From assembly GCF_025996515.1 (NCBI RefSeq), contig NZ_BLRH01000034.1, positions 682,001 to 746,000 on the forward strand: a stretch of 64,000 nucleotides of DNA. The letters run 5' to 3'. The notes under the pieces were generated by a model. It was not told the origin of the DNA, ran no database searches, and saw nothing but the letters and a program-made list of their open reading frames with translations. This document shows, one piece after another, positions 10,882-26,169 of this stretch (position 1 is the stretch's first letter; each line of letters starts with the position of its first letter). The stretch is from Rhizohabitans arisaemae (GTDB lineage: Bacteria; Actinomycetota; Actinomycetes; Streptosporangiales; Streptosporangiaceae). Made by a program: the position numbers and the translations under genes.

Positions 10882-11631
10882 GTGAAGGCTGAATCGGGGA
10901 GCCGGGACCTGCGGGCGGGGATTCTCACGGCGGACCTATCGCCCGTCCTTATCCGCCTGCTGGCGCAATCCCGCGTCGACTTCGTCGTCCTGGACGCGGA
11001 ACAGACCGGTATTCTCCCACGTGACTGCGCGGACGTGGTCCAGCGCCTCCTGTATTCGTCCGTCCACGTGGCCGTACGCGTCCCAGACCTCGACGAACGC
11101 ACCCTCGTGGAGTTCGCCAACACGGGGGCGCACGAGCTGGTGCTCCCGCGCGTACGCAGCCCGCACGAGGTGGAGGACGCGCACCGGGCGACCCGGTACC
11201 CACCGTCCGGCAGACGATCGAAGCAGGTCTCATACGCCTCCTCCCTCGGGACGGACTACAGCCTGGTGCCCCGGCTGAGCGTGCTCTTCGAGACGGTTGA
11301 GGCTATCGACAACGTGGCGGAGTTCGCAGCGTCGAAATTCGTCGAGGGGATGTGGGTCGGCCCCAACGACCTCGCGATGGACCTGGAGGCCCACGGCCGG
11401 GGCGGCCGGGAGAACCTCGAGGCGGCCATCGACCGCACCGTCGCGGTGATGGCCGAGGCGGGGCACTCGATCGGTTTGCCGGCCTCGTCCGTCGACGGCC
11501 TCCAGGACGCCTTCGCCCGAGGCGCCGACCGCTGCGCCGTCTACTGGGAGCGCCAGCTCGGCGCGCTGGTCGGACAGGTGGGCGGAGCGGCCGCGTACTT
11601 TCAGAGTTCGAGAGAGGAAATCGCATCGTGA
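10882..11631 (+). CDS. HpcH/HpaI family aldolase/citrate lyase-type enzyme
   Basis: A 249-residue TIM-barrel protein of the HpcH/HpaI family (4-hydroxy-2-oxoheptanedioate aldolase type), which cleaves 2-oxo-acid aldol products with a divalent metal. Seen: VVLDAEQTG at the first acidic site, VRVPDLDERTLVEFANTGAHE, the loop YPPSGRR, and EGMWVGPNDLAMDL, which matches the family GPxDL(S/A) element. The usual EH of the first site is EQ here, a possible change in the active site. GTG at 10882 follows GGAAGGGG by about 5 nt; a GTG at 10861 is less well placed. It is first in a rightward operon and overlaps the CapA-type gene by GTGA. Confidence 0.8.
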   Translation: MKAESGSRDLRAGILTADLSPVLIRLLAQSRVDFVVLDAEQTGILPRDCADVVQRLLYSSVHVAVRVPDLDERTLVEFANTGAHELVLPRVRSPHEVEDAHRATRYPPSGRRSKQVSYASSLGTDYSLVPRLSVLFETVEAIDNVAEFAASKFVEGMWVGPNDLAMDLEAHGRGGRENLEAAIDRTVAVMAEAGHSIGLPASSVDGLQDAFARGADRCAVYWERQLGALVGQVGGAAAYFQSSREEIAS

Positions 11632-12821
11632 AGCAGGACATCGACCAGGGGACGGCCGCGCGGTCCGCGCTGCGCCTGGGAGCGGTGGGAGACATCCTCG
11701 TCGACCGGGACGAACCCCACACCGCCTTCGCCCGCAGCACCGCGGTGCTGGACGACGTCGACGTCCTCTTCGGCAACTGTGAAGCCGTCTACGCCGACGG
11801 CGTGCACCCCGCGCCCAGTGCGAGCATCCCGGTCCTCGGGAAGCCCGAACACGGCCGCGACCTCGGGAAAGCCGGCTTCGACGTCATGTCGCTGGCCAAC
11901 AACCACACCGTGGACGGCGGGTACGAGGGCCTGCGCCAGACGCTGCGGCTCCTGCACGACCAGGACATCGTGACCTGCGGCGGCGGCGAGAACCGGGCCC
12001 AGGCCGTCGCCCCGGCCGTGATCGAGCGCAACGGGTGGCGCATCGCCTTCCTCGCCTACACCTGCGTCTACCCCGCCGGTTACGAGGCGGGCACGGACAC
12101 GCCCGGCCTGGCCGTTCTGCGCACCCACGACATCTACGTCCGGTCCGAGATGGACGCCTTCCAGTCCGGCGGGGCGCCGGAGCGGCTCACCGTGCTGGAC
12201 CCGCGGGACCTGCGTACCCTCCGATCCCACATCGCCGACGCCCGCCGGACGGCCGACGTCGTCGTGGTGAGCGTGCACGCGGGTGACGGCAGCCGGCCCG
12301 CGGTGGTCCTCGACTACGAGCGCGACATCGCGCGCGCCGCGATCGACGCGGGCGCCGACGCGTACCTGGGCCACCATCACCACATGCTCCGGGGCGCCGA
12401 GTACTACCGGGGCAAGCCGGTGTTCTACGGGCTGGGCCACTTCGTGTTCGACGTGCCGGACTTCGAGAGCCAGGTGCCCCCGAGCATCCTGGCCCGGATG
12501 GCCGAGCACGCCGGCGAGTACGGCTACGGGTATCGCGACGACGGCTATCCGCTGCTGCCCATGCACCCGGAGGCGAGGATGACCGTGTTCGCCGTGTGCG
12601 ACTTCGATCCGGACGGGACCGTGCACGCCGGCGTGGTCGCGACGAGGCTCAACCCCGAGGGTCAGCCCGTGCCGCTCGACCCGGCCGGGGAGGACGGCGC
12701 GGTGGTCCTCGGCTATCTCCGCGACATCACCGGGCGTGCCGAGCTGTCCGCGGACTGGCGCGTGGGAGACCGCACAGTGGGCGGCTACCGCGTCATCGAC
12801 CTCGTCGAATCCGTCTCATGA
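11628..12821 (+). CDS. CapA family metallophosphoesterase-like protein
   Basis: A 397-residue protein of the poly-gamma-glutamate biosynthesis CapA / PGA_cap family, with a calcineurin-like metallophosphoesterase fold. Metal-site-like motifs are GAVGDILVDRD near the start, GNCEAVYAD, SLANNHTVDGGYEGL, VSVHAGDGSRP and LGHHHHMLRG, then PVFYGLGHFVFD. No signal peptide or membrane anchor is seen, unlike capsule CapA proteins, so a cytoplasmic catabolic role is plausible. GTG at 11628 overlaps the previous stop (GTGA), and AGAGAGGAAA is the ribosome site. Its place among catabolic genes suggests hydrolysis of a phosphoester, amide or peptide-like substrate, but this is inference. Confidence 0.8.
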   Translation: MKQDIDQGTAARSALRLGAVGDILVDRDEPHTAFARSTAVLDDVDVLFGNCEAVYADGVHPAPSASIPVLGKPEHGRDLGKAGFDVMSLANNHTVDGGYEGLRQTLRLLHDQDIVTCGGGENRAQAVAPAVIERNGWRIAFLAYTCVYPAGYEAGTDTPGLAVLRTHDIYVRSEMDAFQSGGAPERLTVLDPRDLRTLRSHIADARRTADVVVVSVHAGDGSRPAVVLDYERDIARAAIDAGADAYLGHHHHMLRGAEYYRGKPVFYGLGHFVFDVPDFESQVPPSILARMAEHAGEYGYGYRDDGYPLLPMHPEARMTVFAVCDFDPDGTVHAGVVATRLNPEGQPVPLDPAGEDGAVVLGYLRDITGRAELSADWRVGDRTVGGYRVIDLVESVS

Positions 12822-14026
12822 GCGGCAACGGCCCGGCCGGCGGCAGCGCCCTGGCCGACTCGGGCAGCCGGGCGTTCGACCTGCCCCAGCTCTCGCGAGT
12901 GCTGTACGGCCCCAAGGCGCTGTCACAGGTCTCCTTGGAAGTGGAACGTTCCAGCTGCCGTCGGGTGCTGCTGGTGACGAATCCCGCCACGTACCGGCGC
13001 ACCGACGTGCCGGAGCGCCTGCGGGACATCCTCGGGAGCGCGCTCGTCGGCGTGTTCCCCGAGGCGGGCGCGCACGTGCCGCTCGCCACCGTGGAGGCGG
13101 CGACGGCGATGGCCAAGGAGCGGGGCGCCGACCTCGTCGTGAGCGTCGGCGGCGGCAGCGCCGTGGACTGCGCGAAGGCGGTCGCCCTGTGCGCGCCGCA
13201 GGAGACCTCGGCCTCGGCCGCCCTCGCCCGCCACGAGGTACACGGGGGAGACGCCGCCGGTCACCGGCCGCTGCCGCACATCGCCGTCCCCACCACGCTC
13301 TCCGCCGCCGAGTACACGCCCACGTTCACGGTGACCATGCCGGACGGCGCCAAGGTGATGTACCACCACCCGGACATCACCTCCCGGACGGTCGTCCTGG
13401 ACTCGTCGGTGGCCCGGAACACCCCGGCCTGGCTCTGGAGCGCCACCGGGGCACGGGCCGTCGACCACTGCGTCGAGTGGTTCCTGTCCCGGGCGCACAT
13501 GCCGTTCACCGACGCCCTGGTCGTCCGGGCGCTGGAGATGCTGTGGCGGAGCCTGCCCGCGGTGGCGGAGAACCCCGACGACCTCGACGCCCGGCAGGAA
13601 GGCCAGCTCGCGGCCTGGATGAGCGTGTTCGGCTCCACCAACGTCCTCGGCGGCCTCTCCCACGCGATCGGCCACCAGCTCGGCAGCCACACGGGGATGC
13701 TGCACGGTCATACGACCTGCGTGATCCTCCCCCACGTGCTCGAGTTCAACGCGCCCGCGGCGCAAGACCGGCTGGCGCGGCTCGCCGAGGTGGTCGGGGT
13801 GCGGGACGGCGACGGCGCGCACACCGCGCAGGCCTTCGTCGAAGGACTCCGGGGCCTGTTCCGGCGCCTCGGCCTGCCCTCGACCATCTCCGAGGCCACG
13901 GACTCGGCCGTCGACGTCGCCTCCATCGGCGACGCGGTGATGACCGAGATCGCGATCGCCAACAATCCGCGTGAGGTGACCCGTGACGACGTCCAAGCCA
14001 TCCTCGAAAAGGCCCTCGGGGCCTGA
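12818..14026 (+). CDS. Iron-containing alcohol dehydrogenase / maleylacetate reductase-like (paralog 2)
   Basis: A 402-residue group III dehydrogenase. It has VSVGGGSAVDCAKAVAL for the cofactor, and metal-ligand motifs VDHCVEWFLS, LSHAIGHQLG and LHGHTTCVILPHVLEFN. It is plainly a paralog of the 7408-8577 product: the same motifs occur in the same order. ATG at 12818 overlaps the CapA-type stop (ATGA). Its 3' end overlaps the amidohydrolase start by 44 bp. Two such enzymes in one cluster suggest successive reductions or oxidations, or different aldehydes. No specific substrate can be named. Confidence 0.85.
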   Translation: MSGNGPAGGSALADSGSRAFDLPQLSRVLYGPKALSQVSLEVERSSCRRVLLVTNPATYRRTDVPERLRDILGSALVGVFPEAGAHVPLATVEAATAMAKERGADLVVSVGGGSAVDCAKAVALCAPQETSASAALARHEVHGGDAAGHRPLPHIAVPTTLSAAEYTPTFTVTMPDGAKVMYHHPDITSRTVVLDSSVARNTPAWLWSATGARAVDHCVEWFLSRAHMPFTDALVVRALEMLWRSLPAVAENPDDLDARQEGQLAAWMSVFGSTNVLGGLSHAIGHQLGSHTGMLHGHTTCVILPHVLEFNAPAAQDRLARLAEVVGVRDGDGAHTAQAFVEGLRGLFRRLGLPSTISEATDSAVDVASIGDAVMTEIAIANNPREVTRDDVQAILEKALGA

Positions 14027-15410
14027 GCGCCCGCCCGCCCCGCTGGTCCTCGCCGATGTGGGGGCCGCGTGGGTGGGGCCCGCCGGCGCCCGCGGTCTCG
14101 TCCACGGCGTCGACGTCGTCGTGGAGGACGGTCGCGTACGGGCCGTCGGGCCGGCGGCCCCGCGCCCCGGCGGGGCCCGTGTCCTGGACGCCTCACGGTG
14201 GATCGTCCTGCCGGGCATGGTGAACGCGCACCATCACCTCAACCAGCAGCTGACCAGGACACTCGTGCCCGCAGGGAGCATCGACGACTGGCTCGCCGCG
14301 GCCTACCCCCGGTGGTCGCTGGTGGACGCGAGGACGGCGTGGGCGGGTGCCCGCGCCGGTCTGGCCGAGCTGGTGCTCACCGGTGTGACGACGGTCGGAG
14401 ACCTCAGTTACTACTTCCCCCGCGGGCACGCCGACGTGTTCGACGCCCAGGTGGAGGCGGCGGCCGAGATCGGGTGCCGCATGGTCGCGGCCCGGGGCGG
14501 GCTCCGGGACGCCGGACCGGCGGTACGGCGCCGGGTGGGCGACCTGGTGGACGCCACGATCGAGTCCCCCGACTTCCTCCTCGCCGAGCTGGATCGGGTT
14601 TTCCGGGGGTACCACGACCCCGCCGACGACGCCATGGTCAAGGTGGCCGTGGGTCTCACCGAGCCGCTCTGGGACGAACCGGATCTCATGCGCGAGCTCT
14701 CCGCCTTCGCGCGGTCCCGGGATCTCCGGATGCACACGCACCTGCACCCCCGGCCCTCGGACCACGAGGCCACCGGGGGTGACGTGGTGGCACGCCTGTC
14801 CGAACTCGGATGGTGGGGGCCCGACGTCTGGGTCGCGCACGGCACCCGGCTGGACGCCCGGGAGCGGGCGGCGATGGCGGCCGACGGCGTCGCCCTCGCG
14901 ACGTGCCCCTCCTCGAACGCGCGTCTCGCCACGCCGATCGCGCCCGCCTGGGCGTTGCACCGTGAAGGGGGCGTCGTCGCACTGGGCGTCGACGGCGCGG
15001 CGTCCAACGACGGCGGCGACTTCCTGCTCGAATGCCGCCTCGCCTGGCAGGTGCAGCGCATCGCGGGCGGCCCGGCGGCTAGCGGCCTGCTGCCCGAGGT
15101 CGTTCTCGACTGGGCGACCGCCGGTGGTGCGCGGGCACTGGGCTGGCCGGGCCTGGGAGAGCTTCGCCCCGGGGGCCTGGCCGACCTCGCGTGCTTCGAC
15201 GTGTCGGGCCTGGACTTCGCCGGTGTCACGGATCTGCTCGCCGGCCTCGTGCTGTGCGGAATCAGCCATCGCGCCGAGACCGTGATCGTGGGAGGCCGGG
15301 TCGTCGTCGAGGACCGGCACCTGGTGTCCGCCGACGAGGACGAGATCGCGCGCACCGCGCACCGCCACGCCAAGGCGCTGCGGGACGGTGCGCGCGAAGC
15401 CGGTCTGTGA
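13983..15410 (+). CDS. Amidohydrolase, 8-oxoguanine deaminase / TrzN-like
   Basis: A 475-residue amidohydrolase-superfamily deaminase. MVNAHHHLNQQ (residues 79-89) supplies the first metal ligands, HTHLHP near 250 and VAHGTR near 284 further histidines, and GVDGAASNDGGDFL near 335 the catalytic aspartate; this last motif is close to that of 8-oxoguanine deaminase. The family deaminates or dechlorinates N-heterocycles (8-oxoguanine, s-triazines). The GTG start lies inside the preceding gene; the first about 20 residues are Ser/Pro-rich and unlike the family, so a later start cannot be excluded. It ends the rightward operon, 9 bp from the converging ThDP enzyme gene. A ring-deaminating step feeding the hydantoinase pathway is an attractive inference. 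Confidence 0.8.
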   Translation: MTTSKPSSKRPSGPERPPAPLVLADVGAAWVGPAGARGLVHGVDVVVEDGRVRAVGPAAPRPGGARVLDASRWIVLPGMVNAHHHLNQQLTRTLVPAGSIDDWLAAAYPRWSLVDARTAWAGARAGLAELVLTGVTTVGDLSYYFPRGHADVFDAQVEAAAEIGCRMVAARGGLRDAGPAVRRRVGDLVDATIESPDFLLAELDRVFRGYHDPADDAMVKVAVGLTEPLWDEPDLMRELSAFARSRDLRMHTHLHPRPSDHEATGGDVVARLSELGWWGPDVWVAHGTRLDARERAAMAADGVALATCPSSNARLATPIAPAWALHREGGVVALGVDGAASNDGGDFLLECRLAWQVQRIAGGPAASGLLPEVVLDWATAGGARALGWPGLGELRPGGLADLACFDVSGLDFAGVTDLLAGLVLCGISHRAETVIVGGRVVVEDRHLVSADEDEIARTAHRHAKALRDGAREAGL

Positions 15411-15419
15411 CCGCCGCCG

Positions 15420-17039
15420 CTACTCGCGGGGAAGGAGCTGCTTGATCTCGCGGAACGTGTCGCTCACCAGATCGCCGTTGACCGCGATGTCGATGAGGGT
15501 GGGGCCTTCCCCGGACAGGAACTCGGGAATCCGGGCCAGTCCGGCGACATCGACGACGTGCAGGGCGCGTACGCCCATGGCCCGTGCCATCTCGGCGAAC
15601 GCCGGCGAGGGGTAGTTGGACTCGTCGACCGGGAGGCCCTCGGCCGCCAGGGTGTGCCGCTCGATGCCGAAGCCCGCGTCGTTCAGCACCACCACGGAGA
15701 GCGGCGCACGGGTCCGTACGGCGGTCTCCAGTTCGTGGATGCTCATCGCGGCCGCCCCGTCGCCCATCACCGCCACGACCCTGCGGCCGTTCAGCCCGAC
15801 GGCGGCGCCGAGCGCCAGGGGCAGGCTCTGCGCGATCGAGCCGAAGGAGAACCCGTGGGTGAACGACCGGGGCACCCGCGGGCCGATCAGCTGCGCGGCC
15901 CAGATGCAGACGTGACCGCCGTCGACGACGACCGCGGCGTCGGCCGGGAGCGCCTCGTCGACCGCCGCGCAGGCCCGCCGGGGGTCCACCGTGCCCACGC
16001 CGTCGTCGAAGACGACGACGGGGGAGTCCGCCGACGGCTCGCCCGGCCAGTACTTCCTCGGCTCGGCGGGCGCACAGGCCGCTCTGAGCTGCCGGGCGGT
16101 CACCGCACCGTCGCCCAGTACGGCCAGCCGCGGCCGTACGAACCGTCCGAGGGCCTCCACGCGGGTGTCCACGTGGATCAGCACCGCGTCGTCGCGGAAG
16201 TCGGCCTTGGTCGTGGTCCAGTCGTTGAGCTGTGCACCGAACGCGACGACGCAGTCGGCGGCGGCCAGCGCGGCGGTCGCCCGCGTGTCGCCGAGGCCGC
16301 CCGTCACGCCCAGGTACCTGGGGTGGCCCGCGAAGTTCCCCTTGCCCAGCAGCGAGGTGACGATCGGCGCGTCCAGGTGCTCCGCGAGTGCGACGATCTC
16401 GGCGATCGCCTCGTCGCCCGAGGCCCCGCGACCGGCCAGCAGGACAGGCTGCGAGGCTTCGGCGAGGAACCCGGCCACGGTCTCGACGGCGGCCGGGTCG
16501 GCGGCCATCGGCCGCGGGTCCGGCCGTCCCGGCGTCCGGGCCCCGGCGCAGTCACCCAGTTGCACGTCGGTCGGGGCGTGCAGCACGACCGTCCGCTCGG
16601 TGGCGCAGAGGCGCAGCGCCTCCGCGACGTCCAGGCCGGCGCGCTCGCTGGTGGTGAGGGCGACGACCCGGGCCCCCAGCACCTGGCAGAAGGCCACCTG
16701 GTCGAGCCGTTGCAGGTTGTGGACGTCGCCTGCCGCCAGCCCGCCCGCGATGAGCAGGACCTTGGAACCGTGGGCGGCGGCCGTGGCGAGCGAGGTGGCG
16801 GTGTTCGTCAGCCCCGGGCCGTGCGTCACGGTGGCCACGCCGAGGCGCCCGGTGAGCCGGGAGTAGCCGTCGGCCATCGCGACCGCGCCCTGCTCATGGC
16901 GCGCGTGGACGATGCGGATCGCGTGCTTGCTCGACAGCTCGGCCAGGAGGTGCAGGTTGCCGTCTCCCATGACGGCGAACACGGTGTCCACCCCCTCCTC
17001 CGCGAGCGCGGCGGCGAGGAGTTCGAAGCCGCGCATCAC
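15420..17039 (-). CDS. Thiamine diphosphate-dependent enzyme (acetolactate synthase / 2-oxoacid decarboxylase-like)
   Basis: A 539-residue ThDP enzyme. The catalytic Glu is in HARHEQGAVAMADGYSR (E49). A central DHS-type domain spans about 190-330. The cofactor-binding motif is GDGAAAMS (426-) ending VVVLNDAG (N453-D454). The arrangement fits acetolactate synthase, benzoylformate decarboxylase and 5-guanidino-2-oxopentanoate decarboxylase. With no small ALS subunit and an aminotransferase in the linked operon, a 2-oxoacid decarboxylase is the likelier role. GTG at 17039 overlaps the TGA of a 36-codon ORF; ATG at 17036 forms TGATG. Expression seems to come from an inverted copy of the transporter-operon promoter at 17.3 kb. 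Confidence 0.82.
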   Translation of the reverse strand: MMRGFELLAAALAEEGVDTVFAVMGDGNLHLLAELSSKHAIRIVHARHEQGAVAMADGYSRLTGRLGVATVTHGPGLTNTATSLATAAAHGSKVLLIAGGLAAGDVHNLQRLDQVAFCQVLGARVVALTTSERAGLDVAEALRLCATERTVVLHAPTDVQLGDCAGARTPGRPDPRPMAADPAAVETVAGFLAEASQPVLLAGRGASGDEAIAEIVALAEHLDAPIVTSLLGKGNFAGHPRYLGVTGGLGDTRATAALAAADCVVAFGAQLNDWTTTKADFRDDAVLIHVDTRVEALGRFVRPRLAVLGDGAVTARQLRAACAPAEPRKYWPGEPSADSPVVVFDDGVGTVDPRRACAAVDEALPADAAVVVDGGHVCIWAAQLIGPRVPRSFTHGFSFGSIAQSLPLALGAAVGLNGRRVVAVMGDGAAAMSIHELETAVRTRAPLSVVVLNDAGFGIERHTLAAEGLPVDESNYPSPAFAEMARAMGVRALHVVDVAGLARIPEFLSGEGPTLIDIAVNGDLVSDTFREIKQLLPRE

Positions 17040-17146
17040 CGGACCACCACCCGCGAGGTCGGCCTCGTCGCGGAGATCCCCGCGTCCGGCCGTACACCGT
17101 CCGGCGGCGTCACGCCGCTCCCGTGGGTCGGGGGCAGGTCAAGCAT
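17036..17146 (-). pseudogene. Degraded N-terminal fragment of a dihydropyrimidinase gene, now a 36-codon leader ORF
   Basis: This reading frame (MLDLPPTHGSGVTPPDG, then VRPDAGISATRP...) aligns with the first about 28 residues of the dihydropyrimidinase at 26162 (MLDLLLTNGIVATPSGG, ARLDVGIKDGT), including the DNA around the start: AGAAAGGGATAAGC before this ATG, GAAAGGGAAGAAG before the intact one. After about 28 codons the likeness stops. The ORF has a good ribosome site and its TGA overlaps the start of the ThDP enzyme gene, so it probably serves as a translated leader. Confidence 0.65.
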
Positions 17147-17148
17147 GC

Positions 17149-17256
17149 TTATCCCTTTCTGTGTTGACCGGGCCACGGCGGGCTCCGCCGCACCACGCCG
17201 GGTGCGGCCTTCACCGCGGTGTGTCCGGGGGTGGCCGGGAACGACGGGTCCGTCAT
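17149..17256 (-). pseudogene. Degraded N-terminal fragment of an ABC permease gene (inverted copy)
   Basis: The first 25 codons (MTDPSFPATPGHTAVK, AAPGVVRRS) match the start of the DppC-type permease at 18054 (MTNPSFPATSRHAAVK, LAPGVVRRS). The match ends at 17182, and the frame then runs 10 unrelated codons to a TAA two bases before the next fragment's ATG. It is the coding end of the inverted promoter duplication. It is likely still transcribed, as leader of the ThDP enzyme gene. Confidence 0.7.
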
Positions 17257-17412
17257 GCGAGATCACCCGGCCTCGTCACTCCTCTTAGCGGAAACGCCCC
17301 CGAACGGTCGACCGATACCTCTTCATCAGAATGAACGCAACCCCACTATATGGATGTCTTCACTGTCAAGACCCCTCGCCAAGTTTCCCAATGTGGCCAA
17401 CATCTGGACATA
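17182..17412 (-). repeat. Inverted repeat, left arm: promoter and permease 5' end copy
   Basis: Read on the minus strand this about 230-bp segment aligns almost without gaps to 17901-18128 on the plus strand, roughly four-fifths identical by eye. It includes TTGACA (17367-17372), the TATAG element, TTCATTCTGATGAA (an inverted repeat with 4-bp centre), the leader region and 25 permease codons. The leader-peptide ATG of the right arm is AGG here. Its direction places the duplicated promoter upstream of the ThDP enzyme gene. Confidence 0.85.
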
Positions 17413-17900
17413 TCATCCTAAAGACTACAAAATGGGATTATTTGGACATGTGCTGTCGGGCTCACAGGGGTGCCGCGACCCCGGCACAGAGAAGAGGACA
17501 GGCCGGCGAAGGCCCCGGGAGACGGACGCCGGCTCCGAAGTCTCACGGCCGGGCGAAGAGGGACGCCAACCGGCCGACTTCCCGGAGGACCGGGGAGCTG
17601 TGACGGCTTCGGCGGGAGACCGCCGGAGAATCCACCCGAAGGAGGTGCCGAAGGAGCCATGACCTCCGGCACGAGGAAATGAAGAGGACGAGCCGAGCCC
17701 CGGCCATCACTTCACCCTCTTACCCGGGGGCGATCCAGTGGTGCCGACCCCCGGCCGCCCATGACCCCCGATCCGTCCGGTGATACCGGCCACGGGGATC
17801 ACGGCGTCGCCACCCCGTCACCGAAGGACCTGGTGATGTATGCCCAGATGGCACTTCCTGCCCGATGATCTCATTCTGGGGCTTTCGTGGCTAAGTGTTC
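17413..17900. other. Spacer between inverted promoter copies; no gene seen
   Basis: About 490 bp without a convincing gene. The first part (17400-17450) is unusually AT-rich for this genome and has two TGGACAT(A/G)T direct repeats about 40 bp apart (near 17405 and 17443), which could be regulator sites. Open frames here lack family likeness and a credible context. Confidence 0.5.
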
Positions 17901-17937
17901 ATGTGTCCGCCGCATTGGGGGAACTTGGTGGAGGGTC

Positions 17938-17987
17938 TTGACAGTGACTGCATTCATATAGTGGGGTGGCGTTCATTCTGATGAAGA
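17938..17987 (+). promoter_or_regulatory. Transporter operon promoter and operator
   Basis: TTGACA (17938-17943) and TATAGT (17957-17962) are separated by only 13 bp, too short for a standard sigma-70 promoter, yet the spacing is the same in the inverted copy. Just downstream lies TTCAT-TCTG-ATGAA (about 17972-17985), a perfect 5-bp inverted repeat conserved in both arms. The short spacer suggests a regulator-dependent promoter or a different true -35. Confidence 0.5.
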
Positions 17988-18036
17988 GGCAGCGGCCGAC
18001 CGTGCGGGGTCGTCGTTTCCGCAGGGAGGAGTGACG

Positions 18037-18057
18037 ATGCTGGGTGATCTTGCATGA
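18037..18057 (+). CDS. Six-residue leader peptide MLGDLA
   Basis: ATG at 18037 follows GGGAGGAG by 5 nt, the best ribosome site in this leader, and reads M-L-G-D-L-A before a TGA that overlaps the permease ATG (ATGA at 18054-18057). The permease itself has no comparable ribosome site, so its translation probably depends on termination of this short ORF. In the inverted copy the ATG has become AGG. Confidence 0.5.
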   Translation: MLGDLA

Positions 18058-18938
18058 CAAACCCGTCGTTCCCAGCGACCTCCAGACACGCCGCCGTGAA
18101 GCTCGCACCCGGTGTGGTGCGGCGGAGCGCGGAGTTTCTGGGGAAGGCCGCGGGCACGGTCATCGGCTGCGCCATATTGGCGGGGCTGATTCTGGCGGGG
18201 TTGTTCGCCCCATTGCCGTTCGACCCGGTGGCACCCGACCCGATGTCCATCCTCCAGGCGCCCAGTGCCACGCACATCATGGGCACGGACGGCTCGGGGT
18301 TCGACGTCTTCTCCCGGGTGATCGATTCGGCGCAGCGGGACATCCCGCTGGCTTTGGGCGGGGTCCTGGTGTCGATCCTCATCGGTGTACCGCTCGGACT
18401 GCTGGCGGGAGGCCGGGCCCGATGGACCGAGGGCCTCATGCGGGCGGTCGAGGTGTTTCAGGCGTTTCCGCTCATCGTCCTGGCGATCGTCATCGTCAAG
18501 GTGAGCGGCAACCGGCCGGAGAACGTGATCCTCGCCCTGGCCATCGTTAACGTTCCCCGCTTCATCCGCCTGGTCCGCGGCGAGGTCCTGAGCATCCGGG
18601 AGAGCCGGTTCGTCGAGGCGGCCGCCGCAACCGGCTGTTCACCCGCGCGTGTCACCTTCCGGCACATTCTGCCGAACGTACCGGGGATCATCCTGGTGCA
18701 GAGCTCGCTGGCTGCGGCGAACGGCATGATCGTCGTGGCGACCCTGAACTTCATCGGGCTGGGCGCCGACCCGCCGACGGCCGCCTGGGGGGCGATGATC
18801 CAGGACGGAAGCCAGTACATCCCGCAGGGTGCGTGGTGGGTGGCCGTGTTCCCCGGTCTGGCGATCTTCGTCACCGTGATCGCCTTCAACCTCATCGCGG
18901 ACAACATTGAGAAGATCTTGAGAGTGGGTCGCCGGTGA
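18054..18938 (+). CDS. ABC transporter permease, DppC/OppC type
   Basis: A 294-residue inner-membrane permease of the peptide/nickel family. There are about six hydrophobic spans, the first at about 35-52, then GTDGSGFDVFSRVIDSAQ and the EAA-loop (EAAAATGCSPARVTFRHILPN, about residues 190-210) that docks to the ATPases. It starts by ATGA overlap with a six-codon leader peptide. The next gene starts by GTGA overlap. The operon order (permease C, ATPase D, ATPase F, permease B, binding protein) is unusual only in placing the binding protein last. Its 5' 25 codons are duplicated in inverted orientation at 17182-17256. Confidence 0.9.
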   Translation: MTNPSFPATSRHAAVKLAPGVVRRSAEFLGKAAGTVIGCAILAGLILAGLFAPLPFDPVAPDPMSILQAPSATHIMGTDGSGFDVFSRVIDSAQRDIPLALGGVLVSILIGVPLGLLAGGRARWTEGLMRAVEVFQAFPLIVLAIVIVKVSGNRPENVILALAIVNVPRFIRLVRGEVLSIRESRFVEAAAATGCSPARVTFRHILPNVPGIILVQSSLAAANGMIVVATLNFIGLGADPPTAAWGAMIQDGSQYIPQGAWWVAVFPGLAIFVTVIAFNLIADNIEKILRVGRR

Positions 18939-19927
18939 AGGCCTCGGGCGAACTCAAAGTGGAAGACCTCCGTGTGTCGTTCCAGACGGCACAGGGCACG
19001 GTGCGCGCCGTCAACGGCGTCGGCTTCGTCGTCAAGCCGGGGGACGTCCTCGGCGTCGTCGGGGAGTCGGGGTGCGGCAAGTCGGCGACCCTGCGCGCGA
19101 TCGCGGGGCTGACGCAGCCGCCCGGGCACATCGACGGCGGCCGGGTGGAGTTCGACGGCCGGGAGCTCACCGGGCTCGGGCGCGGCGGGCTGCGGCGCAT
19201 CCTCGGCAACGAGATCGGCTTCATCAGTCAGAGCCCCTTCGGCGCCCTCAACCCCATCCTGTCCATCGAGCGGCAGTTCCGGAACGTCATCAAAGCGCAT
19301 CGGCGCGCGTCCGCACGCGAGTGCCGCGAGATCGCCCTGAAGGCGCTGCGCGACGTCGGGATCGCCGGACCCGAGCGGGTCCTCGACGGCTACGCCCACC
19401 AGCTGAGCGGCGGGATGGCCCAGCGTGTCGTGATCGCCATGGCCACGGTCCACAATCCGCAGCTGATCCTCGCGGACGAGCCCACCACGGCGCTGGACGT
19501 CACCGTTCAGCGGCAGATCCTCGATCTGATCACCGGGCTGATCGCCGAAAGCAACCGGTCGATGCTCATCGTCACCCACGACCTCGGCGTCGTGGCCCAG
19601 TACTGCACCCGCGTGCTGGTGATGTACGCCGGCCAGGCCGTCGAGGAGGGCACGGTCGACCAGGTGTTCCGCACGCCGCAGCACCCTTACACCCAGGCCC
19701 TGCTCGCCGCCGTGCCCAAGGTGGGCGGCGAGATCCGGGGATTGCAGGGAGGGTTGCCGGACCTGATCAACTACCCCAGCGGCTGCCCGTACGCCGACCG
19801 GTGTCCCAAGGCCACCGAGGTCTGCGTGGAGACCCGGCCCCCGATGGTCCGGGCCGGACAGGGAAGAAGAACCGCGTGTCATCACGCTGCCGGGGAGGTG
19901 GCCGGCTATGCCGCTGCTCGAAGTTGA
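18935..19927 (+). CDS. ABC transporter ATP-binding protein, DppD/OppD type
   Basis: A 330-residue ATPase. Walker A GESGCGKSATLR lies near residues 42-53, signature LSGGMAQR near 160, Walker B LILADEPTT near 180 and the H-loop IVTHD near 210. The C-terminal oligopeptide/dipeptide extension (YPSGCPYADRCPKATEVC) has the cysteine pattern typical of the D/F subfamily. GTG start overlaps the permease stop by four bases. It should form a heterodimer with the next ATPase. Confidence 0.92.
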   Translation: MKASGELKVEDLRVSFQTAQGTVRAVNGVGFVVKPGDVLGVVGESGCGKSATLRAIAGLTQPPGHIDGGRVEFDGRELTGLGRGGLRRILGNEIGFISQSPFGALNPILSIERQFRNVIKAHRRASARECREIALKALRDVGIAGPERVLDGYAHQLSGGMAQRVVIAMATVHNPQLILADEPTTALDVTVQRQILDLITGLIAESNRSMLIVTHDLGVVAQYCTRVLVMYAGQAVEEGTVDQVFRTPQHPYTQALLAAVPKVGGEIRGLQGGLPDLINYPSGCPYADRCPKATEVCVETRPPMVRAGQGRRTACHHAAGEVAGYAAARS

Positions 19928-20894
19928 AAACGTGGTGAAGACGTTCCGCCGCGGCGGCGGTCCGGCGGTCCGCGCCGTGGACGACGTCAGCTTCTCCATC
20001 GAAGCCGGCCAGACCATGACGCTGATCGGCGAGAGCGGATCGGGCAAGTCCACCGTGGCGCGCATCGTCCTGGGCCTGGAGCGGCCCGACTCCGGCCGCG
20101 TCGTCTTCGACGGCCAGGATCTCACCGCGATGTCGCCGCGGGATCTGCGTGCCAAGCGCTCCACCCTCACCGCGGTGTTCCAGGAGCCCTACGAGTCCCT
20201 CAACCCCCGGATGAAGGTCGAGTCGATCGTCGGCGAGCCGTTGAAGCTCTTCGACCGCACCCTGTCCAAGGCCGCCCGGCGCGACCGGGTGGTCGCGTCC
20301 CTGGAGGAGGTCGGCCTCGGGGCCGGGATCCTGCGCCGCTACCCCGGTGACCTCAGCGGCGGCCAGCAGCAGCGGCTCGGCATCGCGCGCGCGCTGATCC
20401 TCAGCCCGCGGCTGATCGTCCTGGACGAGCCGACGTCCTCGCTCGACCTGACGGTCCGGGCGACGATCCTGACCCTGCTCAAGGAGCTGCAGCTCCGCCA
20501 CTCCCTCACCTACCTGTTCATCTCCCACGACATCGCCACGGTGCGCTACTTCAGCACCAACACGGGCGTGATGTATCTGGGCCGCTTCGTGGAGCGCGGG
20601 CCGACCGAGGAGATCATCGACGATCCCCGTCACCCCTACAGCGTCGCCCTGCTGTCCTCGACCCTGTCGACCGATCCCGGCGAGATGAAACCCGCCCGGC
20701 CGCTGACGGGCGACGCGCCCAGCCCCACCACGCGCTTCCCGGGCTGCCCGCTCGTCGGCCGCTGCCCGGTGCAGGTCGACGAGTGCGCCACCCGTCCGGT
20801 GCCGATGACATCCATCACGCCCACCCGCTCGGCCGCCTGCATCCGGGTCCGGCCGGGCACCGCCGGGCCCGAACGGAACGAGGCCCCCTCGTGA
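19908..20894 (+). CDS. ABC transporter ATP-binding protein, DppF/OppF type
   Basis: A 328-residue ATPase with Walker A GESGSGKSTVAR (near 41-52), Q-loop VFQEPYESLNP, signature LSGGQQQRLG, Walker B LIVLDEPTS and H-loop FISHD. The oligopeptide C-terminal motif is FPGCPLVGRCPVQVDEC. It overlaps the preceding gene by 20 bp and the next by GTGA, so translation is probably coupled through the operon. Confidence 0.92.
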   Translation: MPLLEVENVVKTFRRGGGPAVRAVDDVSFSIEAGQTMTLIGESGSGKSTVARIVLGLERPDSGRVVFDGQDLTAMSPRDLRAKRSTLTAVFQEPYESLNPRMKVESIVGEPLKLFDRTLSKAARRDRVVASLEEVGLGAGILRRYPGDLSGGQQQRLGIARALILSPRLIVLDEPTSSLDLTVRATILTLLKELQLRHSLTYLFISHDIATVRYFSTNTGVMYLGRFVERGPTEEIIDDPRHPYSVALLSSTLSTDPGEMKPARPLTGDAPSPTTRFPGCPLVGRCPVQVDECATRPVPMTSITPTRSAACIRVRPGTAGPERNEAPS

Positions 20895-21904
20895 GGTCCA
20901 CGCTCACCTACGCGCTCAAACGGCTCCTGCTGGTGCCGTTCATGCTGTTCCTGATCGCGACGCTGTCGTTCCTGCTGCTCGCGTTGATCCCCGGCGACCC
21001 CGCCGTACTGATCGTCGGCGAGTTCGCCGACCAGGAGACGCTGGCCCGGGTACGCGCCGACCTCGGGCTGGACCGGCCGTTCTGGGAGCAGTACCTCACC
21101 TACCTGGCCGCGGTCGCCCAAGCCGACCTCGGCCAGTCCTACCTCACCGGGACCCCGGTGATGGAGGAGATCGGGCAACGCCTCCCCAACAGCCTGGTGA
21201 TCATCATCCCGTCGCTGCTGATGGCCGTCGTGGTCGGGACGGTCGTGGGGACCGCAGGCGGCTACTTCCGGCGCGGCCCGGTGGGCAAGGTCACCTCGGT
21301 CCTGATCTCGGCGGCCCAGGGTGTGCCGCCGTTCTTCCTGGCGATCGTGCTCATCTACCTGCTGGTTTTCACCATCCGGATGTTCCCCGTCCCCACCGGG
21401 ATGCTGTACTCCTCGATGCGGCCTCCGCCCGAGGTGACCGGGGTGGTGCCGCTGGACGCGCTCCTGGCCGGGCAGTGGTCGGTGCTGGGGGCGATCACGG
21501 CGCACGCCATTCTCCCGGTGATCGCCACGGGGCTGTTCCTGGCGTCCTACTTCGCCAAGACGGTCCGCACGAGTGTGACCCAGGCGATGGCCACCCCGCA
21601 GGTCGAGTTCGCCCGCGCCTGCGGGCTTCCCGAGCGGCAGGTCGTCCGGTACGCCCTGCTCACCGCGCGGACCTCGGTCCTCACCTACACCGCGGTCCTG
21701 TTCGGGGTGATGCTGAGCGCCACCGCGGTCGTGGAGGTGGTGTTCTCCTGGCCGGGAATCGGCGCGTGGGCGCTGGACGGGGTCCTCAAGGGTGACCTGC
21801 CCATCATCCAGGGCTTCATCGTCGTCACCGGCGGCCTTGTCATCATCGCCTACGTGGTGCTGGACGTGTTGGTGGCCGCGCTGGACCCGCGGATCCGTCA
21901 CTGA
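20891..21904 (+). CDS. ABC transporter permease, DppB/OppB type
   Basis: A 337-residue permease. N-terminal span (about 10-32), then LIPGDPAVLIVGEF and LGLDRPFWEQYLTYL, both characteristic of DppB. About six spans in all. The EAA-loop region is EFARACGLPERQVVRYALLTARTS near 238-262, and WPGIGAWALDGVLKGD is the C-terminal family motif. GTG start overlaps the ATPase stop (GTGA). A 90-bp gap with its own promoter separates it from the binding-protein gene. Confidence 0.9.
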   Translation: MRSTLTYALKRLLLVPFMLFLIATLSFLLLALIPGDPAVLIVGEFADQETLARVRADLGLDRPFWEQYLTYLAAVAQADLGQSYLTGTPVMEEIGQRLPNSLVIIIPSLLMAVVVGTVVGTAGGYFRRGPVGKVTSVLISAAQGVPPFFLAIVLIYLLVFTIRMFPVPTGMLYSSMRPPPEVTGVVPLDALLAGQWSVLGAITAHAILPVIATGLFLASYFAKTVRTSVTQAMATPQVEFARACGLPERQVVRYALLTARTSVLTYTAVLFGVMLSATAVVEVVFSWPGIGAWALDGVLKGDLPIIQGFIVVTGGLVIIAYVVLDVLVAALDPRIRH

Positions 21905-21932
21905 CGGGCCCGCTCCGGGCACCTGTGGCCCG

Positions 21933-21962
21933 TTGACTGGCAACAATTTCATTATATAGTTT
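21933..21962 (+). promoter_or_regulatory. Internal promoter and operator candidate before binding-protein gene
   Basis: TTGACT (21933-21938), 16-bp spacer, TATAGT (21955-21960) is a near-consensus sigma-70 promoter. The spacer and -10 contain TTCATTATATA (21948-21958), identical to the motif in the XRE-cupin regulator's promoter. On the minus strand the site reads AACTATATAATGAAA. This would let the binding protein and downstream enzymes be expressed separately from, or above, the transporter core. Confidence 0.6.
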
Positions 21963-21993
21963 TAGTAATCATTAAGTTGAAGGGAGCCGGTCT

Positions 21994-23610
21994 ATGGATG
22001 TCCGTGCTCGGTCCGGGCGTGCGCGTCGCGCGGGAGTTGCGGCGGTGGCGCTCGGGGTTCTCCTCGGCGGCTGCAGCCTGCAGGAACCTGCCGGCGACGG
22101 CTCCCCTCAGGGAGACGCCGAGAAAGTCTTCGTCTACGCGGCGCCCGGTGTGCCGGCCCACCTGGACCAGTTCCCCTGGGGTGGGCAGCCGAGCAAGCTC
22201 GTGTACGGGGTGATCGACTCGACCCTGGTCCGCTACGAGGGCAAGTGCGATGTCCTGGGGCAGAACGACGACCTCACGCCGTCGCTCGCCGCGTCCTGGG
22301 AGCGCGCGGAGGACGGCAAGAGCGTGGTCTTCAAGCTCGCCGACGCCGTCAGCCCGGCCGGCAACAAGCTCACCGCCGAAGACGTGAAGTGGAGCGTCGA
22401 GCGCCAGCTCGAACGCGAGCCCTTCATCGCCACCGCCCTCGGGTTCATCGGCCGGTTCGACGTCAAGAAGCTCGTCGAGGTCGTGGACGAGAAGACGGTG
22501 AAGATCAACGCCCTCGAGGCGTCCTCGTTCGACGTGATGCAGTTCGCCAGCACCCTCCTGACGATCCACGACAGCAAGACCGCCAAGACGCACGCCACCC
22601 CGGACGACCCGTGGGCGACCAAGTGGCTGGCGAAGAACACCGCCAACTTCGGCCCGTGGCAGGCCGAGCGCTTCGAGCCCTCCAGCGAGGTCGTCTTCAC
22701 GGCGAACCCCAACTACAAGGGCAAGCGCGGCAACATCGACCGGGTCATCGTCCGGGCGGTTCCGGATTCGGCGACCCGCATGCAGCTCGTCCGCTCGGGC
22801 GACGCGAGCTGGGCCGACTCCCTGACCTTCGCCGAGTACGCGCAGCTGCAGAGCGCCCCGGGCGTCAAGGTCGAGGACTGCGTCGCCGCCGACCGCGACG
22901 ACATCCTGCTCCAGCAGAAGAACAAGATCTTCTCGGACCCGCAGGTCAGGCAGGCACTGGCCATGGCCATCGACCGCGACCGCATCGTCAAGTCGATCTA
23001 CCGCGGGTTCGGCGAGCCGGCGAAGTCCGGCGTCCCGCAGTACTACAAGTTCCCCGAGCCCCGCAAGGTGTACGAGTACGACCCCGAGGGCGCCCGCGCA
23101 CTGCTCGCCAAGGCCGGTCACCCCAACGGTTTCTCCTTCACCGCGCTCTACAGCGAGTCCCGGCCCGGCCCGCACGTCAAGGACGTCGCGGTCCAGGTCC
23201 AGGCGGACCTCAAGCAGGTCGGCATCGACATGAAGCTCCAGCGCGTGCCGGGCGCGGCCGAGTTCTTCCAGCTCGTCCGGGAGCACCGCTACGACGCCGT
23301 GTTCTACAGCGACTCGACCTTCGTCGGCGACGCCTCGTACGGGGCCGCCGCCTTCACCCTCTCCACGTCCAACATCAACACCTTCGGGTACAAGAACCCC
23401 AAGTACGACGAGCTGGTGTTCGCGGCCAGGGCCGCGGAGGGTGAGAAGCGCGACAACTACATCCGGGACATCGCCGAGCTGGGGGTCACCGACACACCCA
23501 TCGCCTACCTCGTCGACAGCGCCAACGTGCAGGCGCACCGGGACAACATCACCGGCTTCACCAACAGCCCCATGCGCACGGTGAACCCCTCGCAGATGAC
23601 CATGGGGTGA
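21994..23610 (+). CDS. ABC transporter substrate-binding lipoprotein (SBP_bac_5 family)
   Basis: A 538-residue extracytoplasmic binding protein. The signal peptide ends in the lipobox LLGGC (Cys about 26), so it is lipid-anchored. The body has family landmarks: LVYGVIDSTLVRYEG, LTPSLAASWERAEDGK, LTAEDVKWSVERQL and VRQALAMAIDRDRIV. The family binds oligopeptides, nickel, or amine and glycan-derived solutes. The ligand cannot be read, though the hydantoinase/amidase genes that follow suggest a cyclic ureide or acylated amino acid. AAGGGAG lies 8 nt before the ATG. The gene stop overlaps the next GTG. Confidence 0.9.
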   Translation: MDVRARSGRARRAGVAAVALGVLLGGCSLQEPAGDGSPQGDAEKVFVYAAPGVPAHLDQFPWGGQPSKLVYGVIDSTLVRYEGKCDVLGQNDDLTPSLAASWERAEDGKSVVFKLADAVSPAGNKLTAEDVKWSVERQLEREPFIATALGFIGRFDVKKLVEVVDEKTVKINALEASSFDVMQFASTLLTIHDSKTAKTHATPDDPWATKWLAKNTANFGPWQAERFEPSSEVVFTANPNYKGKRGNIDRVIVRAVPDSATRMQLVRSGDASWADSLTFAEYAQLQSAPGVKVEDCVAADRDDILLQQKNKIFSDPQVRQALAMAIDRDRIVKSIYRGFGEPAKSGVPQYYKFPEPRKVYEYDPEGARALLAKAGHPNGFSFTALYSESRPGPHVKDVAVQVQADLKQVGIDMKLQRVPGAAEFFQLVREHRYDAVFYSDSTFVGDASYGAAAFTLSTSNINTFGYKNPKYDELVFAARAAEGEKRDNYIRDIAELGVTDTPIAYLVDSANVQAHRDNITGFTNSPMRTVNPSQMTMG

Positions 23611-24260
23611 GGGTGAGCCAGGCACAGGCTCCTCAGACGGAGCGAATCGATCCGAGGTCGTCCGCCCTCATCGTGGTGGACATGCAGAACGGGTTCTGTC
23701 ATCCCGACGGAACGGTGGCCCAGGCCGGTCCGGTGGACGCGCATCGCGCGGTGATCGCGCCCGTGGCGCGGCTGGCGCAGGCCTGCCACGAGGCCGGGAT
23801 CCCGGTCTTCTGGTCCCTGCAGGAGCACTTCGAGGGTGACGTCTCGATCGACAGGTCACGTCTGGACAACCCGCAGGCGCGGCTGCCTCAGCCGCCGTGC
23901 CTGCGGGGCACCTGGGACGCCGAGCTCGTCGACGAGCTACGTGACCTGGCACACGGCGACGTACACATCGTCAAACACCGGGCCAGCGCCTTCTACGGCA
24001 CCGGGCTGGAGGTCGAGCTCCGGATGCGCGGTGTCCGCACCGTGGTGGTGACCGGAGTCAGCACCAGCTACTGCGTGGACGCGACGATCAGGGACGCGTA
24101 CGCACGGGACCTCGGCGTGATCGTGGTGGAGGACGCGTGCGCCTCCCCGTGGCCCGACCTGCACGCAGCAACCATGAAGAACGCGGCGATCTTCCACGGG
24201 ACGGTGACGAACACCGCCCACGTCCTGGGGATGATCGCTGCCGGGAAAGGACCGCAATGA
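23607..24260 (+). CDS. Cysteine hydrolase, isochorismatase / N-carbamoylsarcosine amidase-like
   Basis: A 217-residue isochorismatase-fold hydrolase with the full amidase triad: Asp25 in VVDMQNGF, Lys123 in IVKHRASAFYG and the nucleophile Cys156 in VSTSYCVDATIRDA. Relatives hydrolyse N-carbamoylsarcosine, ureidoacrylate, biuret and nicotinamide. Next to a dihydropyrimidinase, an N-carbamoyl amino acid amidase is the natural inference. GTG at 23607 overlaps the preceding stop; GTG at 23613 is an alternative. It is followed by the aminotransferase through ATGA overlap. Confidence 0.85.
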   Translation: MRVSQAQAPQTERIDPRSSALIVVDMQNGFCHPDGTVAQAGPVDAHRAVIAPVARLAQACHEAGIPVFWSLQEHFEGDVSIDRSRLDNPQARLPQPPCLRGTWDAELVDELRDLAHGDVHIVKHRASAFYGTGLEVELRMRGVRTVVVTGVSTSYCVDATIRDAYARDLGVIVVEDACASPWPDLHAATMKNAAIFHGTVTNTAHVLGMIAAGKGPQ

Positions 24261-25207
24261 ACGTCAGCGTCGACGACGTGCCGGCGCAGCCGGCCGGAAA
24301 GCCCAACCAGCCGCGCTACCTGCTCCGGGACGGTGAGCTGGTGGAGTACGCGGACGCCAGGCTCCACGTGCTCAGCACGACCCTGAAGTACGGCGTCGGC
24401 GTCTTCGAGGGCTTCCGGGCGTACTGGAGCGAGGAGGAGGGCCAGCTGTACGGCTTCCGCCTCGACGCGCACATGAGGCGGCTCGTCGAATCCATGCGGG
24501 TGGTCGAGATCGACGGCCCCACCGACGTCCAGGTCCTGCACGACCAGATGGTCGAGCTGATCCGCGCCAACGAGCTGCGGCAGAACCTGCACATGCGCGC
24601 GCAGGTGTTCGTCGACTCCCCCGACGGCAAGCCGGAGGACCGGGGGCCGTCGACGACCTTCATGGCGGCGATCCCCATGGGCAACTACTTCGGCGCCAAG
24701 GGGCTCGACGTCCAGATCAGCTCCTGGACCCGGCTCAGCGACCGGTCGATGCCGCCCCGGGTGAAGTCGATCGCGAACTACCAGAACGCACGCCTGGCCC
24801 TGCTTGAGGCGAGGCGGAACGGCTACGACGCGGCACTGCTGATGACCACCGAGGGCCGGGTGTCCGAGGGTCCCGGCTACAACCTGTTCATCGTCCGCAA
24901 CGGCAGGCTGACCACGCCGCCGGTCACCGAAAGCATCCTGGAGGGCGTCACCCGCGACAGCATCCTCCAGCTCGCCAAGGACGCGGGACTGGACGTGGAC
25001 GTCCGCCCCATCGACCGTACGGAGCTGTACTCGGCGGAGGAGGCGTTCGTGTGCGGGAGCGCCGCGGAGGTCAACCACCTGCGCTCGGTGGACCGCATCC
25101 CGTTCGGCGACACCAACCCCGGCCCGATCACCCGGCAGCTGCAGGAGATGTTCCGGGACGCCGTCCTGGGCCGTACGAAGCACGCCTGGACGACCGAGAT
25201 CTATTGA
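24257..25207 (+). CDS. Class IV PLP aminotransferase (branched-chain / D-amino acid type)
   Basis: A 316-residue fold-type IV transaminase. The PLP lysine is K170 in PRVKSIANYQNA, followed by GYDAALLMTTEGRVSEGPGYNLF, the phosphate-binding and Glu motif. STTLKYGVGVFEGFRAY near 40-56 is the N-terminal BCAT signature. It converts an amino acid to the 2-oxo acid with 2-oxoglutarate or similar as acceptor. In this operon it would follow amidase release of the amino acid and precede the ThDP decarboxylase at 15420. Start overlaps the previous stop by ATGA; the stop overlaps the next start by TGATG. Confidence 0.88.
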   Translation: MNVSVDDVPAQPAGKPNQPRYLLRDGELVEYADARLHVLSTTLKYGVGVFEGFRAYWSEEEGQLYGFRLDAHMRRLVESMRVVEIDGPTDVQVLHDQMVELIRANELRQNLHMRAQVFVDSPDGKPEDRGPSTTFMAAIPMGNYFGAKGLDVQISSWTRLSDRSMPPRVKSIANYQNARLALLEARRNGYDAALLMTTEGRVSEGPGYNLFIVRNGRLTTPPVTESILEGVTRDSILQLAKDAGLDVDVRPIDRTELYSAEEAFVCGSAAEVNHLRSVDRIPFGDTNPGPITRQLQEMFRDAVLGRTKHAWTTEIY

Positions 25208-26169
25208 TGGCCGGACCAGGCGTCGTCCAGGCCGATCCACCGGTGATCGGCCTGGACCACACACACGGGCATTTCTCCGCCGAGATCGAGCCCGGACTCG
25301 CCGTCACGCCGGGGCAGCGGTTCGTCGTACGGGCCGCGAGTCTGCTGACCAACCCGCTCTTCGGCAAGTCCGACGAGTACGAACGGATGGCCATTCCCAT
25401 CACCGGGCCCATCCACGTGACGGGTGCCGTGGCCGGTGCCACCCTTCGGGTGGACATCCACCGCATCGGCCTCGCCGACCGCGGCGCCATGGTGACCATC
25501 CCCGGGAGGGGCGCCTTCGGCGGTGCCCCGCTTGGCCGGTACGGGCGCACGATGGAGATTTCCGGGGGCTTCGTCCACTTTGACGAGGACACCCGCATCC
25601 CCGTGGACCCGATGGTCGGCAAGATCGGTGTGGCCGTTCCCGGTCCCCCGCCCGTGTCGAGCACGGTGGGGACCTTCGGCGGGAACCTCGACTGCCGCGA
25701 GATCCGCGCCGGGTGTTCCGTCTTCCTCCCCGTCCAAGTCGACGGCGCGTACCTCTACGTCGGCGACCTCCATGCCGCGCAGGGCGACGGGGAGTGCTCC
25801 ATGACCGCCGTCGAGGTCGAGGGAGAGGTCGAGCTCAGCTGCTCTCTGGTGCCGGAGGTGACGCTCGAACGGCCGATGCTGGTCACCCCCACGTCCCTCT
25901 TCACCATCGGCGACGGCGACGATCTCGACGCGGCCGCCCGTACCGCCCTCGACGACATGCTGGCCTTGGTGACCGGGGACCGCGGCTGGTCCCGGGAGAA
26001 GGCGGCCATGTTCCTGAGCGCCGCGGCGGACGTGGCCGTCTGCCAGATCGTGAATCCGCGTGCTTCGGCGCGCGCCGGGGTCCTCCTCGACTACCTGCGT
26101 TCCCGGCGACTCCGTGAGACCTTCCGGCCGCTGGTTCCGGTCGTGAATGAAAGGGAAGAAGATGCTTGA
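25207..26169 (+). CDS. Acetamidase/formamidase family protein
   Basis: A 320-residue FmdA/AmdA-family amidase. Seen: a metal-site-like HTHGHF near residue 18, VGTFGGNLDCREI near 155-168 and VGDLHAAQGDGE near 185-196, the usual signature segments; the last includes the conserved acidic and His residues. The family releases ammonia from formamide, acetamide and other short amides. It may complete hydrolysis of an amide by-product of ring opening. It is TGATG-coupled to the aminotransferase gene and overlaps the dihydropyrimidinase start by 8 bp. Confidence 0.87.
   Translation: MAGPGVVQADPPVIGLDHTHGHFSAEIEPGLAVTPGQRFVVRAASLLTNPLFGKSDEYERMAIPITGPIHVTGAVAGATLRVDIHRIGLADRGAMVTIPGRGAFGGAPLGRYGRTMEISGGFVHFDEDTRIPVDPMVGKIGVAVPGPPPVSSTVGTFGGNLDCREIRAGCSVFLPVQVDGAYLYVGDLHAAQGDGECSMTAVEVEGEVELSCSLVPEVTLERPMLVTPTSLFTIGDGDDLDAAARTALDDMLALVTGDRGWSREKAAMFLSAAADVAVCQIVNPRASARAGVLLDYLRSRRLRETFRPLVPVVNEREEDA

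Follow-up and report, generated by a model that had tools for sequence, protein, structure and literature searches.

In the 64,000-nucleotide stretch of Rhizohabitans arisaemae DNA analysed here (the window), an intact gene for a ThDP-dependent enzyme lies directly downstream of the truncated starts of two other genes, a dppC-type permease and a dihydropyrimidinase (hydantoinase)-like amidohydrolase (DHP), both of which are also present in complete form in a plus-strand operon of the same genome. We consider it very probable that an ancestral ten-gene operon was duplicated head to head and then underwent complementary deletion, which left the ThDP gene behind the relics of its former upstream genes. 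The parts of the locus are listed below, with primes marking those of the collapsed copy.

11352 to 15410, plus strand: convergent block of genes for a PGA_cap protein, an Fe-dependent alcohol dehydrogenase (Fe-ADH) and an amidohydrolase, found beyond ThDP here, in Amycolatopsis jejuensis and in a Leucobacter MAG
15420 to 17036, minus strand: ThDP, intact gene for an acetolactate-synthase-like ThDP-dependent enzyme of 538 aa (Pfam, orthologues, GDG...N motif)
17036 to 17146, minus strand: DHP', mini-ORF of 36 codons, of which codons 1-24 are a remnant of the dihydropyrimidinase start (match to 26149-26233)
17149 to 17256, minus strand: dppC', mini-ORF of 35 codons, of which codons 1-25 are a remnant of the permease start (MTDPSFPATPGHTAVKAAPGVVRRS against MTNPSFPATSRHAAVKLAPGVVRRS)
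17257 to 17410, minus strand: P', candidate duplicated promoter/operator within a 232-bp inverted repeat, with TTGACA at 17369-17364, TATAGT at 17350-17345 and the palindrome TTCATTCTGATGAAG at 17335-17321
17896 to 18053, plus strand: P, candidate promoter/operator of the intact operon, with TTGACA at 17938-17943, TATAGT at 17957-17962 and the palindrome at 17972-17986
18054 to 18938, plus strand: dppC, intact permease gene and source of the first remnant (Pfam BPD_transp_1; 83% to A. jejuensis)
18935 to 26169, plus strand: dppD, dppF, dppB, the solute-binding protein gene (SBP) and, after it, genes for an isochorismatase-like hydrolase, a class IV aminotransferase (AT4) and an FmdA/AmdA amidase (Pfam)
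26162 to 27586, plus strand: DHP, final gene of the intact copy and source of the second remnant (Pfam Amidohydro_1; NCBIfam D-hydantoinase score below cut-off)

Using the interval 17000-18180 as a query against the organism's own 8.3-Mb genome, we found that the plus-strand operon is its only match besides itself. On the permease side, a 232-bp inverted copy (17179-17410 on the minus strand against 17896-18131 on the plus strand; 82% identity, E 1.4e-60; within the window, 84% over 220 nt, E 6e-56) spans the promoter region and dppC codons 1-25, and on the DHP side, an 85-bp match (17075-17159, minus, against 26149-26233, plus; 75%, E 9e-9) spans the ribosome-binding site and DHP codons 1-24. 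These matches are real and well above chance, confirming an earlier note on this DNA that had placed the two fragments upstream of ThDP, with strands, order and coordinates that all hold, and that had predicted significant nucleotide identity to the intact genes; the duplicated promoter region goes beyond what that note described.

The homology is shorter than the mini-ORFs, so the codon alignments proposed in the earlier note are sound at their 5' ends and too long at their 3' ends. In an ungapped 111-nt alignment of DHP' with DHP, identity amounts to 55 of the first 72 nt and to 13 of the last 39, which is chance. This tail (17036-17074) holds no secure homology apart from a 14-nt colinear match to DHP (13/14) that directly follows the secure part once 43 nt are skipped; DHP homology may therefore extend to about 17061, a weak hint of a small frameshifting deletion. 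Derivation of the 39-nt tail from the 3' end of DHP, by a deletion joining N- and C-termini, was considered and is unsupported (p 0.16 to 0.98). For a straight continuation of DHP into the tail, one comparison among the many tried, with the Leucobacter MAG, gave p 0.003. Likewise, dppC' differs from dppC at 11 of 75 nt, and its homology stops at codon 25-26; the ORF then continues for ~10 codons that cannot be clearly assigned to dppC and show a weak likeness to the FmdA 3' end (p 0.03). The original start context ascribed to both fragments is retained by DHP' but not by dppC', ahead of which the ATG of a small upstream ORF has been lost (AGG in the left copy). In the intact copy this 6-codon ORF overlaps the dppC start by ATGA (MLGDLA-stop, 18038-18056); A. 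jejuensis has an ORF of the same length and position with a different sequence (MSGSMQ-stop, around 502-522), making a conserved coupling mini-ORF possible.

What the arrangement once looked like can be read from relatives. A GTDB scan of 84,980 genomes yielded three close ThDP orthologues, in A. jejuensis (L035; 65% identity), the Leucobacter MAG (L036; 60%) and a Nocardioidaceae MAG (L037; 69%). The first two carry a single operon on one strand in the order promoter-dppC-D-F-B-SBP-isochorismatase-aminotransferase IV-FmdA-DHP-ThDP, and beyond ThDP both have the convergent amidohydrolase, Fe-ADH and PGA_cap genes that the window also shows. The remnants, P'-dppC'-DHP'-ThDP, match the order and strand of P-dppC...DHP-ThDP in both, and the gene order of the 18935-26169 block is identical as well. 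The intact plus-strand operon (18054-27586) is thus a second copy of the remnants' source genes, with nine genes from dppC to DHP and no ThDP at its end; a search for a ThDP remnant downstream of the intact DHP gave no significant match (best E 0.25). The divergent promoter region separates this operon from ThDP and its convergent neighbours, and since the neighbours are the same in A. jejuensis and the Leucobacter MAG, we conclude that the left copy is the in-place operon in its ancestral context. The A. jejuensis DHP gene ends in a stop codon that overlaps the ATG of ThDP (GCATGCTGA), indicating that ThDP was a coupled distal cistron. The proposals that ThDP once followed a duplicated operon, and that it is functionally linked to the hydantoinase operon, are both supported by these two genomes, in which ThDP is the last member of that operon, directly after DHP.

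The same gene set is rearranged in the Nocardioidaceae MAG (L037, 3466-18211), where ThDP follows SBP and isochorismatase-FmdA-DHP is found about 3.6 kb beyond, in an orientation that remains convergent with the amidohydrolase. Because ThDP stands after SBP and not after DHP there, it can move within the operon, and its place has varied. The convergent block accompanies the hydantoinase operon in four actinobacteria and is likely to belong to the same pathway; its PGA_cap protein is weakly similar to the lasso-peptide epimerase MslH, and its amidohydrolase is 8-oxoguanine-deaminase-like.

The ThDP protein carries the three TPP domains (Pfam TPP_enzyme N, M and C, all above cut-off) and the GDG...N motif (at residue 425) of acetolactate-synthase-like ThDP enzymes. 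The best 25 NCBIfam models all fell below their cut-offs (for example, 255.8 against 509 bits), and the protein does not qualify as an acetolactate synthase equivalog. Its longest ORF begins at GTG 17039; the start is most likely ATG 17036, because the relatives align at M-R/L-G-[YF]. In the plus-strand operon, the starts assigned mechanically to the aminotransferase and FmdA ORFs (24137 and 25051) give overlaps of >100 nt with the preceding genes; translation probably begins instead at the coupled junctions, ATGA (about 24257) and TGATG (about 25207), respectively.

We propose that the ancestor had one operon, P-dppC-D-F-B-SBP-isochorismatase-AT4-FmdA-DHP-ThDP, convergent with the amidohydrolase/Fe-ADH/PGA_cap block, and that a second copy, from P through DHP, was placed head to head upstream; inverted duplication within the genome or acquisition from a close relative may have supplied it. 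Redundant genes would then have been lost in complementary fashion, the new (right) copy being without ThDP and the old (left) copy losing its interior in two or three deletions. One would have removed the DNA between dppC codon ~25 and a point shortly ahead of the DHP start, which spans about 8 kb in the intact copy, and another would have taken out roughly 1.3-1.4 kb between DHP codon ~24-43 and the start of ThDP, so that the promoter/operator, the dppC start, the DHP start with its ribosome-binding site, and ThDP would be what remained. The shrinkage proposed in the earlier note is thereby upheld, although two or three internal deletions describe it better than a cutting down to gene starts.

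The DHP' remnant is identical to the window's own DHP at 55 of 72 nt, compared with 43/72 for A. jejuensis, 40/72 for the Nocardioidaceae MAG and 38/72 for the Leucobacter MAG, and dppC' and dppC resemble each other in an N-terminus that can barely be aligned with the relatives. Both remnants are therefore closest to the window's own genes, indicating that the duplication is specific to this lineage or involved a close donor. The promoter arm has diverged by about 18%, which suggests that the duplication is old and argues against an assembly artefact. The differences between DHP' and DHP number 2/9/6 at codon positions 1/2/3, as opposed to 5/3/13 when DHP of A. jejuensis is compared with that of the window (Fisher p 0.016 for the second position); DHP' is thus free of amino-acid constraint and the mini-ORFs are relics. 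For dppC' and dppC, the corresponding spread is 5/1/5, with 6 of 11 differences nonsynonymous.

A variant of the preferred reading, differing from it only in the origin of the second copy and hence overlapping with it in the confidence we assign, is that the right-hand dppC...DHP operon was horizontally transferred from another lineage and displaced resident genes, which decayed. We regard it as a tentative alternative. The operon is indeed sporadic, with three well-conserved orthologues in the GTDB scan and none in the other family genomes searched, and the window's ThDP, DppD and DppF are nearer to the Nocardioidaceae MAG while its DHP, FmdA and AT4 are nearer to A. jejuensis. However, such mixed affinities may reflect nothing but faster evolution in A. 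jejuensis, and P and P', like dppC' and dppC, are far closer mutually than to known relatives, so any donor must be close. Such a transfer would bear on where the second copy came from and leave the collapse itself unaffected.

Alternatively, a separate ThDP gene could have captured a short inverted promoter with a dppC start and received the DHP piece in a separate small transposition, which would fit the presence of short pieces only and the far better preservation of the promoter arm; we judge this improbable, as two independent events would have to reproduce operon order and strand by chance, the pieces sit directly ahead of the very gene that follows DHP in A. jejuensis and the Leucobacter MAG, beside the same convergent block, and less coincidence is required if a copy already in place suffered deletions. 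More improbable still is that the mini-ORFs are a functional regulatory leader (an attenuator or riboswitch-like element) instead of relics. In favour of this, the two ORFs are tightly joined and run without interruption up to the ThDP start; against it, there is no Rfam match at E<=1, no terminator-like stem in 17036-17340 and no regulatory-codon run in either peptide, and DHP' has lost its amino-acid constraint.

Returning to duplication followed by complementary loss, we sought the collapsed state in a second genome and did not find it among 343 family, 395 class, 80 A. jejuensis-related and 200 Nocardioidaceae MAG-related genomes. The family, class, L035-genus and L037-family searches contained neither a two-copy relative nor a further close ThDP orthologue, the host genus being represented by a single genome among those searched. 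Within the organism's own family the best ThDP matches reach about 44% identity, and no operon gene turned up in the short surrounding loci that were retrieved. A DNA search of 343 family genomes with the leader and promoter gave, outside the own genome, short chance-level matches only, and a plasmid collection gave no match. The literature search found no paper on this operon and no precise precedent, and likewise nothing relevant on the mechanism of the duplication.

The two copies share a recognizable promoter/operator block. TTGACA, CATAGTG and a TTCAT..GATGAAG palindrome are kept in A. jejuensis and the Nocardioidaceae MAG and, less exactly, in the Leucobacter MAG, with flanks that align poorly, and the exact 15-mer palindrome occurs twice in the 8.3-Mb genome, in P and P' only. 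P and P' differ at 5 of 52 core promoter positions and 37 of 185 flanking positions, the core being not significantly better conserved (p 0.10). Because the TTGACA-TATAGT spacing is short (13 nt; the alternative is 15 nt to TAGTGG) and a standard sigma-70 scan did not list this promoter, a transcription start near 17338 on the minus strand is a guess from conservation. From the shared block, we infer that ThDP is transcribed from P' and shares its regulator with the other nine genes, with one putative repressor acting on both promoters and ThDP co-induced as a separate transcription unit.

The second fragment does end in TGATG on the ThDP start, as the earlier note had stated: at 17036 the DHP' stop overlaps the ThDP ATG. 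An AAAGGG ribosome-binding site is kept ahead of the DHP' ATG, so the chain has both features expected under translational coupling, namely a stop that overlaps the next start and a ribosome-binding site serving the upstream ORF. The TAA stop of the dppC' ORF lies 2 nt ahead of the DHP' ATG. Coupled junctions are common in the intact copy too (TGATG at AT4/FmdA, ATGA at ISOC/AT4, short overlaps elsewhere). Of the three starts, that of DHP' is the most open in the predicted fold (0.56 unpaired) and that of ThDP is buried (0.23), as expected if ThDP relies on coupling. Ribosomes would then reach the ThDP start partly by termination-reinitiation at TGATG from the DHP' mini-ORF, a plausible route in this model; direct initiation from a weak GGTGG upstream of ThDP is possible as well. 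The frame stays open in 64% of shuffles of the DHP' interior, so open frames are no proof of selection for the chain. That the dppC', DHP' and ThDP chain is maintained as a ribosome-loading leader, with relic starts re-used for coupling after the operon split, is an idea we entertain with some doubt; such upkeep could be expected because ThDP, a former distal cistron without a strong ribosome-binding site of its own, would need a translated upstream ORF.

The locus offers a legible record of a distal gene leaving a long operon yet keeping a promoter/operator block common to both halves, and its scars reveal which deletions were tolerated. It raises a simple, testable question: must deletions that release a coupled distal gene spare a translated upstream start? 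Tying the ThDP enzyme to an uptake operon with hydantoinase, amidase and aminotransferase genes also narrows the search for its substrate.

Translational coupling through TGATG and ATGA overlaps is a known mechanism. The overlap of the DHP' stop with the ThDP start follows the same style as the AT4/FmdA and ISOC/AT4 junctions; the upstream cistron here, however, is a truncated relic and not a functional gene. The event itself is of an ordinary, well-supported kind, and the head-to-head placement and readable scar are unusual. Whole or partial operon duplication with gene loss and rearrangement has been surveyed for exopolysaccharide operons (PMC7112194), and 'operon destruction' is treated in PMC2653477, citing Price et al. 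2006. As in such operon remodelling, the operon occurs in two copies in the window, genes have been lost and rearranged, and what was once a distal cistron ends up as a transcription unit by itself. In contrast to the duplicated operons of PMC7112194, which are at least 10 kb apart, the copies here stand head to head about 0.5 kb apart, the losses in one complement those in the other, and ahead of gene 10 the collapsed copy still has, in order, the promoter, the start of gene 1 and the start of gene 9. The outcome also resembles duplication-degeneration-complementation (PMC2213666), in that each copy lost what the other kept and together they amount to one ancestral operon, but the unit here is an operon whose whole cistrons were partitioned, not a single gene with its subfunctions.
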